A stretch of 64,000 bases of DNA from Nitratiruptor sp. YY08-10 (lineage in GTDB: Bacteria > Campylobacterota > Campylobacteria > Campylobacterales > Nitratiruptoraceae). Shown piece after piece: positions 7,492-13,328 of this stretch. The number at the start of each line of letters is the position of its first letter. Position 1 is the first letter of the stretch. The notes under the pieces are model-generated. The model searched no databases and had not been told where the DNA came from. It saw only the letters and a program-made list of their open reading frames with translations. Both the position numbers and the translations under genes were made by a program. The stretch spans positions 1,302,001-1,366,000 of the forward strand of contig NZ_AP023057.1 of NCBI RefSeq assembly GCF_016629565.1, read 5' to 3'.

Positions 7492-9563
7492 TAGATATTT
7501 CCTTTCAGATCCGACTGCGTAAACCTTTGGGAAAACCCTCCCAAAGGATACAACATAAACTGTATATAAAACGAGTTGATATGATAATAATCGACACCTT
7601 TGTTACTTAAAAGAGGCAACGTCTCCCTTTTATAGGAAAGCTTCATATTCCAACAGTTTTTCTGCATCAGCCAACCAAGGCTCCAACTGTTGGTTACACT
7701 TTTTTTGATATCATAGTTTATTGTAGCAAAGAGTTGATGTTTTTTTGATAAATGTTTGCTGCCCGAAAATTGAATATAATTTGATTCATCCCTATTTTCT
7801 CGCCCCTTTTTGTAAAGATGCGAAAGGAAAAGCCGATACTTCTCATCTTGATAAGAAACAGTCGATGAGATAGAATCAAGATCAGAATATTGATGAGAAT
7901 AAAAAATATCTGTATATAAATACCAGTTCTTCCGGATATGGAGTCCAATCTCATTTTCTAGATTTTGTAGTTTTTGGGGTTCGTTATAATTGATAGGCTG
8001 GGAAATATAGTGATAGAGTATTTCAGAACCCTCTAAATCGTAAAAATACTCTTTCATACTCAATTCAAGCCGTTTATGTGTCTGACCTATATTGATAAAA
8101 TCGGCTTTTGTTCCACCGTTTTTCTCAAAACTCGGCAAATACAAAGAAGCATTGAAATGCAGTGTATGAGTACCTGTACTGTATGGTTTGATAAGATCAC
8201 TAAACACAGAAATTTTGTGTTCATTGCGAAATGTGTAGCTTTTATCATAATCTTGCGTGGCTGATTCATTGGTATAGAATGTGTAATTTCCAAACAGTTG
8301 CTCACTGACCGATATTCCAAAATAGTCATCCCAAAAACGTGTATACCATGTAATTGGAAAATTTAACTGCATTTCAGTGGCATTAAGTCCCTCTTGCCTG
8401 TAAAAATTGTTGATCCTGAAATTGGCATTATAATAGATATGCGGAATCAAAGAAGTTGTATAATGATGATAGTGGAGTGCCGGTAACAACTGCAACGTAT
8501 CAGCATTGGACACTTTGGTATTGTCTTTGAAATATTTCGCATAGATACCGAAATAGTGGTTGTCTAGATTGTAATAGTAGTTTAACCTTGAAATCACGAG
8601 TGTTGAAACACTTACATATTGGTTTTGTTGCTCTTTAAGGTTAAAATAGTCTACATCATTATACGCTTTCCAATCGATAAAGAGACCATCTTTATGGGAA
8701 TCATCCGGCTGTACGAATAAGGACTCGTCTTTATAAAACAGTTCCAGACCATAATGTTTGTCATTTTTAAGATTGTTTTGAATCCGGTAGGACTTCTTCT
8801 CTTGGAAAATTCCCGCAGTAACTTCACCATACGCATCTTTGTCATTTGCCACTCTGTAGGTTGTATACAGACCATACCCTCTTTTTGTTCGTATTTGGGG
8901 ATCGAACTCTATATCCCACCATTTTTGGGGTGCTATATAAATAGGTTGAATATAGGTGAAACCCTGTTCTTTCGAAATGCCAAAGACAGGGCGGAGCAGT
9001 CCCGAACGCCTTTTTTTATTCGTTGAAAAACTGAGATAGGGAGTATAGAGAATAGGAAAATTTCCGATATAAAGCTTGGCATGATACAGATCAACCCAGT
9101 CTTTTTCCTTATCGTAAATACCTTTTTCAAAATAGATTTTCCAATCACTACATCTTGAATCACAACTGGAAGTAAAAGCGTTTTTTGCGACTATCTTTTT
9201 CCTATCCGCAGAGTATTCGCTTCCCTTAATCCAGATATTCGTTCCATTTTCGGAAAAGAAAAAAGGTTTCGCATAGATATGATCCGTTTTGAGATCAAGA
9301 ATAGCAAAATCACTTAATGCGCTATATTTCTCGCCGTCCAACATAAAAATATGGCCATACAGTTTCACAAAACCGTTTTTTTTGTCATATACAATTTTAT
9401 CCGCTTCCAAATAGTAGTTTTTATATTCAACTGCAGACCTGGACTGGAGTTTGAAACTGTTTTGTGATGCAGTGGCTTCGAGGGTATATATTTTGACATG
9501 AGCCGAGGAAGCCATCACCAGCGAAGCCGCTAAGGATGGCAGAATGATCTTACGCAGACTCAT
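7491..9563 (-). CDS. lptD: LPS-assembly protein LptD
   Basis: Outer-membrane barrel that inserts lipopolysaccharide into the outer leaflet. The start is a signal peptide ([16 protein letters not shown]). The OstA-like N-terminal beta-jellyroll follows ([25 protein letters not shown]). Cys134 and Cys138 are close together, and one late Cys (NCWNM) sits near the C-terminus, so the disulfide pattern differs from E. coli with its two Cys pairs. The rest is barrel strands rich in Tyr, Phe and Trp. It overlaps the end of purD by 14 bases and shares one base with the MCE gene, which places LPS and phospholipid transport in one operon. Confidence 0.93.
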
Positions 9564-10833
9564 CTATTTGCAATGCCTGATATGCAATATCTTTACGAAA
9601 CTTTTTACCGGCAAAATGGACTTGACCGGTCAACATATAGGCATAATCTCTCGCTTCTTTGATCGTATCACCGAGACCCACGCATACCAGTACCCGGCCA
9701 CCGGTTGCAAAGAGCTTCCCTTCTATGAGACTCACTCCTGCATAACAGATCAAAGAGTGTTCTTTGAGTTCACTGTGGACAATATCATCAACGATAATTT
9801 CACTCGGCTTCGATTTTCCGTAAGGATAGTTCTCACTGGCTAAAACTACCCCAACTGCATATTTATCGTAAAATTCTACCTTCAATTCATCTAAACGCTT
9901 CGTAGCCGCTTTATAAAACAGTTCAGATGCCGGAGTTTTGAGAAGTGGCATCAGCACTTCGCACTCTGGATCCCCGAAGCGAACATTAAATTCTAAAACA
10001 TACGGTTCTCCATCCACAATCATAAGACCCGCGAACAGAACCCCTTCAAACGGTGTCCCATCCTTTGCCATACCAGCAATCGTAGGGGCAATGATTCGAT
10101 CCTCTATTTTTTTGGAAAGTTCATCATTGATAAGGGGAGTTGGTGCGTAAGCTCCCATTCCACCTGTATTGGGCCCTTTATCTCCATCAAGAAGTCTTTT
10201 ATGATCCTGTGCGGCCGGTAAAATGACGTAGTTTTCTCCATCACTGATAGCAAAGATGCTGAGTTCATAACCATCGAGGTACTCTTCAATCACCACTCGC
10301 TGACCAGCCGGACCAAAAGCTTCCCCACTGAGCATGTTCGCCGCAGCCTCTTTTGCTTCTTCGCGAGATTGGGCGATGATAACACCCTTTCCTGCACATA
10401 AACCGTCAGCCTTTACCACAATAGGCGGTTCAAGTTCATCTATAAATTCCGCGGCCTCATCCATTATCTCCGTTTCAATGTATCGTGCCGTGGGAATATT
10501 GTACCGTTTGAGAAAATTTTTCATATAGATTTTTGAACCCTCAAGCAAAGCCGCTTTTTGAGAAGGTCCAAAAATAGTAAGCCCTTCTTCTTTAAAAACA
10601 TCGACGATTCCTTCCACCAGTGGGGCCTCTGGACCGACAATCGTAAGATCAATACCCTGCTCTTTTGCAAAAGCTGCAAGTTCACGAAAATCAGAAATCT
10701 CGACATTTTTCCCGAGTTGTAGTGTAGCACCGTTACCCGGAGCAAAATAGATATTTTCAACGTTTGGATCTTTTTTGAGGGCATACCCTATAGCGTATTC
10801 TCTCCCCCCGCTTCCGACAACCATTACATTCAT
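9550..10833 (-). CDS. purD: Phosphoribosylamine-glycine ligase
   Basis: ATP-grasp enzyme that joins glycine to phosphoribosylamine, step 2 of purine synthesis. [12 protein letters not shown] at the N-terminus, [15 protein letters not shown] (ATP-grasp, about 135-150), [13 protein letters not shown] and [18 protein letters not shown] (metal-binding Glu/Asn) are diagnostic. The length (427) is normal. GAAGGAAA precedes the ATG at normal spacing. A structured RNA lies directly upstream and may share the transcript. Confidence 0.97.
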
Positions 10834-10889
10834 ACCAGTTTCCTTCTCTATTTATCTTTGAAAAAGAGACATCCTTTTCAAAAACAAAT

Positions 10890-11092
10890 AAAAAAGCCCG
10901 AGCGGGCGTTCGCGCAATGCCATGGTCCCTAAGACCATAAGAAGAGGGAGCGAGTTTTGGATTAGGCGGCGGCTCCTCGCCAGGCGTCCCTGGCTCAAAC
11001 GGAGTCACCGACACACACCAAAATCTACAGGCCTCCCTCAACGGATTATTGTCGGACCCCCATACTGCGGGTAGCGCACCGCTCAGGCTTTC
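10890..11092 (-). ncRNA. ssrS: 6S-like structured RNA upstream of purD (purD RNA motif), with intrinsic terminator
   Basis: About 200 bases without a real gene fold into one long rod on the minus strand. The ends pair as GCCTGAGCGG with CCGCTCGGGC, and the latter runs into six T. Further in, GAGGGAG (11033-11039 on the plus strand) pairs with CTCCCTC, TTTTGG with CCAAAA, and GGTGACTCC with GGAGCCGCC. The tip is a GCCAGG/CCTGGC hairpin. An unpaired centre between the outer and inner stems resembles the 6S RNA bubble that mimics an open promoter. A conserved structured RNA before purD is known in this phylum and has been linked to 6S RNA. SRP RNA, RNase P and tmRNA signatures are absent. Exact ends are estimates. 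Confidence 0.65.
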
Positions 11093-11097
11093 AATGA

Positions 11098-11126
11098 ATT
11101 ATACACCAAACGACTCGAAAATACAA
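11098..11126 (-). promoter_or_regulatory. Promoter of the 6S-like RNA
   Basis: The minus strand has TTGTAT and a consensus TATAAT 17 bases apart. The expected start is near 11091, at the foot of the long terminal stem of the RNA. Confidence 0.6.
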
Positions 11127-11139
11127 TAAAAGAGCTTTC

Positions 11140-11778
11140 CTATGAAAGAAGAGTTTTTGCAGTCTCCACACAAGAAACCAAACTCTTTTTTTCAGCCATT
11201 ACATATGAGATCTCTTTTGGCAAAGCCTGGGCCGTCTGCTTGCCAATTACCACTGCTTTATAGCTATCATCCCATGCAAAACAGCGAAAAAAACACTCTA
11301 CCGTCGAAGGAGAAGAGAAGATGATGACAGAACCGGGTTCCGGTTTTTGCACAGTATCACATGCCCGACATACAGTTTCATACGCTATAACCTCATCAAT
11401 CTCAAACCCATTTTGCCGCAAAATGGGCACAAGATTAGATACAACTTTTTTAGGCCTTATGTAAAGATACTTTTTGTCGTTTGAAAAATGTGCGACAATC
11501 TCATTGGCAAGGGTATCGCCATATCCCTCGCTTCCTTGCCATACCACTTTACCACCCTTTTTCTTTATAGCTTTTGTCGTGGCCGAACCGATCGAGATAA
11601 CAGGTTTCAAGCGCCACGTATGAGAAATTTGTTCGATTGCGCGGACCCCATTTTTGGATGTAAAGATGAGATAGTCATATAAAGAAAAGTCGATGGAGAT
11701 GGGTAAAAATTTTTGTTCTATGAGAGGGAGCGTCTTCGCTCCCTCAATCTTCGTATTTGAGAGAATATAGATGGGCAT
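11140..11778 (-). CDS. hemD: Uroporphyrinogen-III synthase
   Basis: HemD closes hydroxymethylbilane with inversion of ring D to make uroporphyrinogen III in haem synthesis. The protein is poorly conserved as usual. It shows the family landmarks: DYLIFTSKNGVRAIEQI, ISIGSATTKAIKKKGGKV, the glycine-rich EGYGDTLANEI, and later VIIFSSPSTVECFF followed by VVIGKQTAQAL. I start at the ATG sharing a base with the guaA stop (TAATG); a GTG three codons upstream is also open. It ends a guaA-hemD pair. Confidence 0.85.
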   Translation of the reverse strand: MPIYILSNTKIEGAKTLPLIEQKFLPISIDFSLYDYLIFTSKNGVRAIEQISHTWRLKPVISIGSATTKAIKKKGGKVVWQGSEGYGDTLANEIVAHFSNDKKYLYIRPKKVVSNLVPILRQNGFEIDEVIAYETVCRACDTVQKPEPGSVIIFSSPSTVECFFRCFAWDDSYKAVVIGKQTAQALPKEISYVMAEKKSLVSCVETAKTLLS

Positions 11779-13328
11779 TATTCCCACTCAATGGTTCCTG
11801 GTGGTTTGGAAGTGATGTCATACACAACTCTGTTAATCCCGTCAACTTCATTGATGATTCTATTGGAAATGAGCTCCAATAAATCGTGAGGGATATGGGC
11901 AAATGTTGCCGTCATACCGTCACTACTTTCTACGATACGAAGTGCAACGGTATTTTCGTAAGTTCTTTTATCTCCCATGACGCCGACACTTTTGACATTG
12001 AGCAGCACAGCAAAACTCTGCCACAATTTTTCATAAAGGCCATGGGCTTTGATCTCTTCAAGTAAAATCGTATCTGCTTTTCGAACAAGCTCCAAAGCCT
12101 CTTCGTTCACCTCTCCTAGAATTCTGATCGCAAGTCCTGGTCCAGGGAATGGATGACGATAGACCATCTCTCTTGGAAGACCCAGTTCAAGACCAAGTTT
12201 TCGAACCTCGTCTTTGAACAGTTCTCTCAAAGGCTCAATAAGTTCAAATTGCATCCATTCCGGAAGTCCCCCGACATTATGATGCGATTTTATTGTTTCA
12301 CTTGGACCTTTAACCGAAACAGATTCGATCACGTCTGGATACAACGTTCCTTGAGCAAGATATTTTACGTCGGTATGCTTTTTTGCCTCTTCTTCGAAGA
12401 CTTCGATAAATGTATGACCGATAATCTTTCGCTTCTGCTCCGGATCTGTTACACCTTGTAAAGCATTTAAAAACCGTTCCTTGGCATCAACAACAATGAG
12501 CGGGACTTTGAGCATATTTTTGAACACATACTCCACTTTCTCTCTCTCACCCTCTCGCAACAGTCCGTTGTCTACAAAAACGGGAATGAGTTTCTCTCCT
12601 ATCGCTTCATACAAAAGAGCTGTAACAACAGAACTGTCCACTCCACCGCTTAAAGCACAAAGTACTTTATCTTCTCCCACTCTTTGGCGTATTTTCTCAA
12701 TCTGCTCTTTTGCAAAATGGCCCATATCCCATTTGTTTGTGACGCCACATATCTTTCTTGCAAAATTTTCCAAGATTTTCTGTCCCTCTTGGGAGTGAGA
12801 CACCTCCGGATGAAACTGCAATGCATAGATTTTTTTCTCTTCATTTGCAATGGCAGCATATGGAGAGTTATCGGTATGAGCAACTCGTACAAACCCTTGC
12901 GGTAGTTCTATTACTTTATCCCCGTGACTCATCCAGACAATCTGCCCGTCCTTTGTCCCTTCAAAAAGTGGACAGATTTTGCCATGTACAGGATCAAAGT
13001 AGAGTTTTGCTTTCCCGTACTCGTGTTCCAAAGCCCGTACCACCTGACCGCCAAAGTCAACTGTAATAAGCTGCATCCCATAGCATATTCCAAGTACAGG
13101 AACGCCCAATTCATAAATCTTTTTGTCTACCCTCGGAGCTTCCGGTTCATAAACACTTGCCGGTCCGCCGCTGAGAATGATACCTTGAGGCTTTTTTGCC
13201 CGGATGTTTTCAATCGGTTCAAAAAAAGGATATATTTCACAATATACCCCAACCTCTCTCAGGCGTCTTGCTATAAGTTGTGTATATTGACTCCCGAAAT
13301 CTAATATAACTATTGGTACTTCTTGCAT
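11778..13328 (-). CDS. guaA: GMP synthase (glutamine-hydrolysing)
   Basis: Converts XMP to GMP with glutamine as nitrogen donor. The N-terminal class I amidotransferase has the Cys nucleophile in GICYGMQL (about residue 82) and the His-Pro-Glu end in [10 protein letters not shown]. The ATP pyrophosphatase domain begins with [11 protein letters not shown] (P-loop, about 225-235). The C-terminal dimerisation domain ends in the invariant [10 protein letters not shown]. Length 516 is normal. It follows the nhaD gene on the same strand by nine bases and overlaps hemD. Confidence 0.98.

Follow-up and report, generated by a model that had tools for sequence, protein, structure and literature searches.

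A 6S RNA gene on the minus strand between hemD and purD

The window analyzed here, a stretch of 64,000 nucleotides, comes from a member of the Campylobacterota and almost certainly carries its one 6S RNA gene, with a sigma-70-type promoter of its own and a rod-shaped product that would act as a polymerase decoy. Several Nitratiruptor bins are among the nearest named relatives by purD, which suggests the Nitratiruptor group. The analysis directly shows the family to which the RNA belongs, its architecture, the conservation of its promoter box, its gene neighbourhood, and covariation in the closing stem, in helix P2 and in a hairpin of the 3' bubble. The identity and the place of this RNA are already in print, and the window adds a member.

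The gene lies in the interval 10890-11126, between hemD and purD, and reads on the minus strand from about 11092 to 10891, the strand on which both neighbours are also found. The first-pass annotation gave no strand. The RNA itself (10891-11092) is about 200 nt long, with a 5' end that the position of the -10 box at 11103-11098 places near 11092 and a 3' end in the T-run at 10895-10890. Downstream, purD (9550-10833, minus strand) is recognized by TIGR00877 with 514.9 bits for a cut-off of 288, and 62 nt separate it from the closing stem of the RNA. The upstream neighbour hemD (11140-11787, minus strand) is recognized by PF02602 (115.3 bits, cut-off 27.5), its NCBIfam matches falling under their cut-offs, and guaA (11778-13328) adjoins it on its upstream side. 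The purD leader also displays, between the 6S RNA and purD, an A/U-rich hairpin on the minus strand (10855-10884; -10.4 kcal/mol, z -3.29, none of 200 shuffles as good), and a hairpin like this one could be seen by eye in the genome G035.

Rod fold and closing stem

The minus strand of 10889-11092 folds with -93.9 kcal/mol, against -73.8 kcal/mol for shuffled sequences (z -4.26), and none of 200 shuffles was as good, which bears out the earlier claim that this non-coding stretch folds into a rod. The plus strand of 10890-11126 folds well too (z -4.89), since the complement of a rod would fold likewise. The RNAalifold consensus of 53 sequences places a bubble between a closing stem and an apical arm, columns 27-86 and 159-227 being unpaired except for an isolated local pair (49-56). 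The open central region that had been described is seen in the family consensus as well, between the closing stem and the apical arm.

When the rod pairing was scored on the alignment, 91.7% of the cells were paired versus 72.6% after shuffling, with 309 double-change cells versus 103, and sliding the partners by one column made the pairing fall to 43.4% or 49.7%. The closing stem is formed by a 5' arm, GCCUGAGCGGUGCG (11075-11088, minus strand), and a 3' arm, CGCCCGCUCGGGC (10896-10908, minus strand), the latter delimited with the R1 alignment described below; both arms covary over the 53 sequences. The stem is long, with 13 pairs, 8 of which display double changes, and 96.7% of its cells are paired. 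A terminal stem of 10 bp had been announced: the stem is present, but it counts 13 pairs in the family consensus, not 10.

Covariance models in both directions

The whole window was searched with the Rfam models at the Rfam cut-offs. The best match of the RNA is RF01069, the 'purD RNA motif' (10896-11028, minus strand), with 89.7 bits (E 6.1e-16) for a cut-off of 41. Within this part fall the apical arm and, from the closing stem and the central bubble, the 3' arm and the 3' side respectively. The 5' third of the RNA, where the matching 5' arm and 5' side are located, is lacking. In the model the 3' arm of the stem has no pairing partner, which is what one would expect if the family had been truncated ahead of the 5' arm. 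RF01069 is a fragment of the 6S RNA of the class, its 3' two thirds, and not a rival to 6S. The first-pass annotation, which had called the RNA 6S-like, proposed a covariance search as a check; this search does put another family on top, but that family proves to be a piece of the 6S RNA.

At a lax threshold, the 6S model itself, RF00013, aligns with 10891-11092 from its first to its last position (1-187 of 187) with 29.3 bits, short of the gathering score of 46.4. The E-value of this match is 2.2e-4 in 311 bases and 3.0e-4 genome-wide, and it is the sole RF00013 match at E<=1 in the organism's own genome (1.82 Mb). We then considered a search set of 68 genomes of the class (40 + 28, own genome included). 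RF00013 matches at E<=1 in six of them, five times on the purD-motif RNA; G176 was counted among these five because its locus aligns with the others, its RF01069 place not being listed. The remaining match, in G116, is false and lies inside a coding sequence. At the same threshold 62 of the 68 genomes had no RF00013 match, and in none of the 68 was the cut-off passed, so that a search relying on the Rfam 6S model by itself would overlook the RNA there. A blastn comparison of the RNA with E. coli genomes gave no match, a result of little weight given that conservation among 6S RNAs is stronger in structure than in sequence.

For the reciprocal test, we built from 53 full-length RNAs of the class (Campylobacterota; alignment A1) the model R1, with 203 positions, 34 pairs and a short calibration that leaves its E-values rough. 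These RNAs come from the 64 remaining of the first 65 loci, after 10 loci with weak RF01069 matches and L093, a close relative of the window, were left out. The dropped locus (L092) was that of the weak 6S-model match in the coding sequence of G116, whose RNA was found later on another contig. With R1, all 10 weak RF01069 loci were found at the same places. The window RNA reaches 162.4 bits (10890-11094), a score that is high by construction as it belongs to the training set. With filters off, R1 gave a weak match to E. coli K-12 ssrS: in a 1.7-kb stretch where the gene is annotated at 484-666, the match runs from 482 to 668, within 2 nt at both ends, and scores 12.3 bits (E 0.0015), ahead of the next-best one with 3.6 bits. 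Such an agreement at both ends is not expected by chance. With default filters on 81 loci at E<=1, the ssrS locus was not listed. Altogether, the covariance models in both directions, the covariation of the closing stem and, at the corresponding locus of C. jejuni, the transcripts and the pRNA published in PMC3847290 uphold the identification as 6S RNA.

Distribution in the class and adjacency to purD

RF01069 at E<=0.001 matches 282 of 298 genomes of the class (271 over the cut-off), in 52 of 58 genera. R1 finds the RNA in 15 of the 16 genomes without an RF01069 match (E 1.0e-5 or better), which brings to 297 of 298 the genomes where one or the other model detects it. G173, in about 110 contigs, is the only genome matched by neither RF01069 nor R1, and a gap in the assembly may account for this.

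The neighbourhood was examined at 72 loci, a non-random set made up of approximately one locus per genus, to which were added the family of the window and those genomes that RF01069 did not match. purD is directly downstream of the RNA in 63 of these 72 loci, and a hemD match was present in 42 of the 72 within the sequence examined. The nine others correspond to eight genomes with purD elsewhere and to one (G221, locus L062) that keeps the RNA while having no purD over the family cut-off. Six of these nine genomes, all of one family (G006, G028, G038, G039, G085 and G223; loci L067, L072, L113, L115, L116 and L117), have hemD beside the RNA and purD elsewhere. Since purD is not downstream in these nine loci, the RNA is not simply a purD riboswitch. 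A tie to purine supply had been suggested from the placement before purD: the adjacency is indeed kept, but the RNA is also kept where purD is not nearby, and the regulatory part of the claim stays unproven. The RNA is independent of purD though the adjacency is strongly kept.

Conversely, R1 was run on 80 named purD loci and detected the RNA in 70, always at E 1.2e-7 or better; in one of these the RNA is truncated by a contig end (L152) and in another it is shortened (L202). Three of the 10 purD loci without the RNA are cut at or near a contig end, one is from Thermodesulfatator, and six have no RNA in the 1.2-2.0 kb upstream; in five of these six, TATAAT stands just before purD. The shortened locus, at 360-460 of a metagenome contig labelled Helicobacter pylori, has about 84 nt of 6S-like sequence in which the closing stem and the 5' bubble are present while the apical arm is missing, and may be an assembly error. 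In one Aliarcobacter metagenome bin, purD and a 6S locus are found on each of two contigs (L173 and L174) and score identically, which probably reflects mixed strains.

Promoter and 3' end

The -10 box TATAAT (11098-11103, minus strand), in the extended form TGTATAAT, is conserved in relatives. It agrees with the gnTAnaAT box that PMC3847290 gives for C. jejuni and H. pylori. In 50 of 63 loci the 68-nt upstream window contains an exact TATAAT, whereas 200 letter shuffles yielded 8.0 such loci on average and 15 at most; in 44 of the 50 loci the first TATAAT stands 67-80 nt before the purD motif. The proposal that the RNA has a promoter of its own is supported by this sequence and its conservation, which point to a sigma-70-type element. 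The same promoter had also been called a consensus one: this holds for the -10 box, but the promoter scan of the minus strand listed no E. coli-type -35/-10 pair.

At the other end, the T-run that had been noted is present as T6 (10890-10895, minus strand), a putative lineage-specific terminator tail. At least four T directly follow the stem in 20 of 63 loci, and all eight loci of the window's family (f1) have there a run of 4 to 7 T. A terminator of its own, as initially annotated, is hence plausible in the lineage of the window, but most of the 63 loci lack the T-run. The terminator hairpin had been drawn as GCCCG-CT-CGGGC, whose 2-nt loop cannot close, whereas a 4-bp hairpin is feasible, GCCC(GCUC)GGGC, with -7.3 kcal/mol and z -1.36; 24 of 200 shuffles did as well. 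The terminator scan, which required 5 pairs, listed none. Across the 53 sequences, this local hairpin is paired in 81.6% of the cells versus 81.7% in shuffles and shows no double changes, and one of its four pairs (230-239) is broken in 28 of the 53.

Helix P2 and an alternative hairpin in the 3' bubble

Inside the bubble, the strand GGUCC (11054-11058, minus strand) covaries with GGACC (10924-10928, minus strand), forming a helix P2 whose 5' strand is expected, by analogy with E. coli, to be on the pRNA template side. The P2 3' strand can pair instead with the adjacent UGGUC, giving a hairpin AUGGUC...GACCAU in the 3' bubble (10922-10938, minus strand) that also covaries. Each of the two pairings is complete (5 of 5) in 51 of the 53 sequences versus about 39 in shuffles, with pairing-score z of 8.0 for P2 and 8.3 for the hairpin that none of 1000 shuffles reaches; two control pairings (z 0.8 and 1.3) were not above shuffles. 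P2 occurs for instance as GGUUC:GAACC, UAGUC:GGCUA and GAUCC:GGGUC. As these shuffles ignore relatedness, the set was thinned to 43 distinct strand combinations, which gave z 6.9 for both.

These scores use the best 5-mer pairing, because in the 3' bubble the MAFFT alignment is off by one column for some rows; fixed columns were scored in addition. On fixed columns, 90.9% of the P2 cells are paired versus 86.0% (none of 500 shuffles as high), and there are 12 double-change cells versus 2.8, a count that sliding by -1 gives too. Two other P2 counts on these columns are unexceptional, namely the pairs that show a double change (3 versus 1.8, 80 of 500 shuffles) and the pair types (71 of 500 shuffles). 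Neither P2 nor the hairpin appears in the RNAalifold consensus of the 53 sequences.

In the lowest-energy folds of the 53 free RNAs, P2 is present in 13 and the hairpin in 31; when the template side was masked, the hairpin was present in 47 of 53. The free window RNA folds with P2, and masking of the template side is required for the hairpin to enter its lowest-energy fold. Such lowest-energy folds do not decide which state is the ground state. Not all 6S RNAs have a release hairpin that shares the P2 3' strand, a feature of the gamma-proteobacterial type. The covariation of both helices, as read from sequence, points to such a hairpin and fits the E. coli type better than a collapse helix. 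The central-bubble collapse helix was itself tried and rejected: the pairing of the distal 5' bubble with the P2 3' strand gave z 0.8, with 219 of 1000 shuffles as high, and showed no clear covariation in the thinned set either (z 1.5, 75 of 1000 shuffles). In a literature search short of Sharma 2010 and Wehner 2014, the likeliest places, we found no description of the P2/hairpin pair for Campylobacterota.

Alternative explanations

Rfam files RF01069 as type Cis-reg, with no clan, and the RNA could on this basis be a cis-regulatory, purine riboswitch-like element of the purD leader. This would agree with RF01069 being the best Rfam match and with purD being so often directly downstream, at less than 45 nt in 32 of the 63 loci. 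RF01069 is however only part of a longer conserved RNA, one arm of whose closing stem it leaves without a partner, and in C. jejuni, according to PMC3847290, the region yields a 185-nt RNA together with a pRNA. The nine uncoupled loci show that the RNA does not need purD to be kept and, with the match of the 6S models in both directions, led us to reject the riboswitch or cis-regulator, which we hold for extremely improbable. A second idea, put forward in the first-pass annotation, is that the RNA switches between the rod and the local 3' terminator hairpin, so that folding would control read-through into purD. The 4-bp hairpin can form just before T6 with the very arm that closes the rod, and the T-run is constant in the window's family; but its pairs do not covary, do no better than shuffles and include one broken in more than half of the sequences, and T-runs are found in a minority of loci. 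Moreover, as the closing stem itself runs up to the T-run, the self-complementarity can be explained without invoking a switch. The switch thus did not withstand the comparison; we consider it very unlikely, and at best a property of the window's lineage.

A third possibility, compatible with the 6S identity, is that the 6S RNA and purD form one transcription unit, with part of the polymerase continuing into purD, so that the 6S level and purine synthesis would have a promoter in common. Its chances appear to us nearly even, if slightly on the low side. It is favoured by the kept adjacency, by the short gaps, which would leave little room for a separate promoter, and by the E. coli precedent of ssrS followed on the same strand by fau, a folate enzyme gene; a TATAAT-like box, which we also list in favour, is present in 26 of the 63 gaps. 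On the other hand, the RNA and purD are uncoupled in 9 of 72 loci, the 62-nt gap of the window could hold a promoter, and purD loci without the RNA upstream mostly have a TATAAT just before the gene. Whether or not purD is read from the same promoter, a 6S RNA gene remains by far the best explanation of the window's locus.

Comparison with known 6S RNAs

The H. pylori 6S RNA upstream of purD was reportedly the subject of work by Sharma et al. in 2010. The window RNA resembles those of C. jejuni and H. pylori in its place upstream of purD, its sigma-70 promoter, its closing stem and its central bubble. According to PMC3847290, the 185-nt RNA of C. jejuni lies upstream of purD and is the top-transcribed non-coding RNA next to rRNA and tRNA, it is accompanied by a 13-nt antisense pRNA, and a 6S homologue is found at the same place, before purD, in H. 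pylori. The window RNA, predicted from sequence in a different organism, is of similar length, about 200 nt. The same article, PMC3847290, describes no significant regulation of the C. jejuni 6S RNA across exponential-growth phases or by acid, so its physiology may differ from that of E. coli. The word purD is absent from the main text of another article, PMC2864571.

With E. coli ssrS and RF00013, the window RNA shares an end-to-end alignment, the closing stem, P2 and the bubble, although its score is under the Rfam cut-off. In E. coli and its relatives, as stated in PMC8876501, a 9-bp hairpin that engages the P2 3' strand forms in the 3' bubble upon pRNA synthesis and is key in release. The hairpin of the window type uses the P2 3' strand in the same way. 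Unlike in E. coli, it is already in the lowest-energy fold of most free RNAs (31 of 53), which is nearer to B. subtilis 6S-1 as depicted in PMC8876501. For B. subtilis 6S-1 and Aquifex 6S, the use of a collapse helix is presumed (PMC8876501 and PMC4227106). Both share the rod and the bubble with the window RNA, and a short hairpin in the 3' bubble is present in B. subtilis 6S-1 as well, but we saw no sign of a conserved collapse helix (z 0.8).

Proposed mechanism and implications

We propose the following course of events, where the steps that involve the polymerase (its binding, the making of the pRNA and the release) are inferred for this organism from the work on E. coli and C. jejuni. Transcription of the minus strand from the sigma-70-type promoter would produce the RNA of about 200 nt, which would fold into a rod with a closing stem of at least 13 pairs, a central bubble and an apical arm. 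This rod could mimic an open promoter and thereby occupy the housekeeping RNA polymerase. With an ample nucleotide supply, the enzyme would copy a pRNA from the 5' side of the bubble; this synthesis would open P2 (GGUCC:GGACC) and free its 3' strand, which could then form the hairpin AUGGUC:GACCAU and help the release of the enzyme. In many species, purD may share transcription with the 6S RNA.

A more general hypothesis, which we put forward tentatively and regard as possible rather than probable, is that the 6S RNA of Campylobacterota keeps an E. coli-type bistable core, the P2 3' strand being selected for both pairings, and heads a 6S-purD unit in most species. If this were true, the nucleotide supply that drives 6S release and a purine-making gene would have one promoter in common. 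What Rfam lists as the 'purD RNA motif' is no riboswitch but a truncated 6S RNA. Annotation by Rfam cut-offs reports a purD cis-regulator and misses the 6S RNA, RF00013 having reached its cut-off in none of the 68 class genomes searched. The full-length model and the covarying P2 and hairpin offer direct targets for the study of 6S release outside E. coli and Bacillus.
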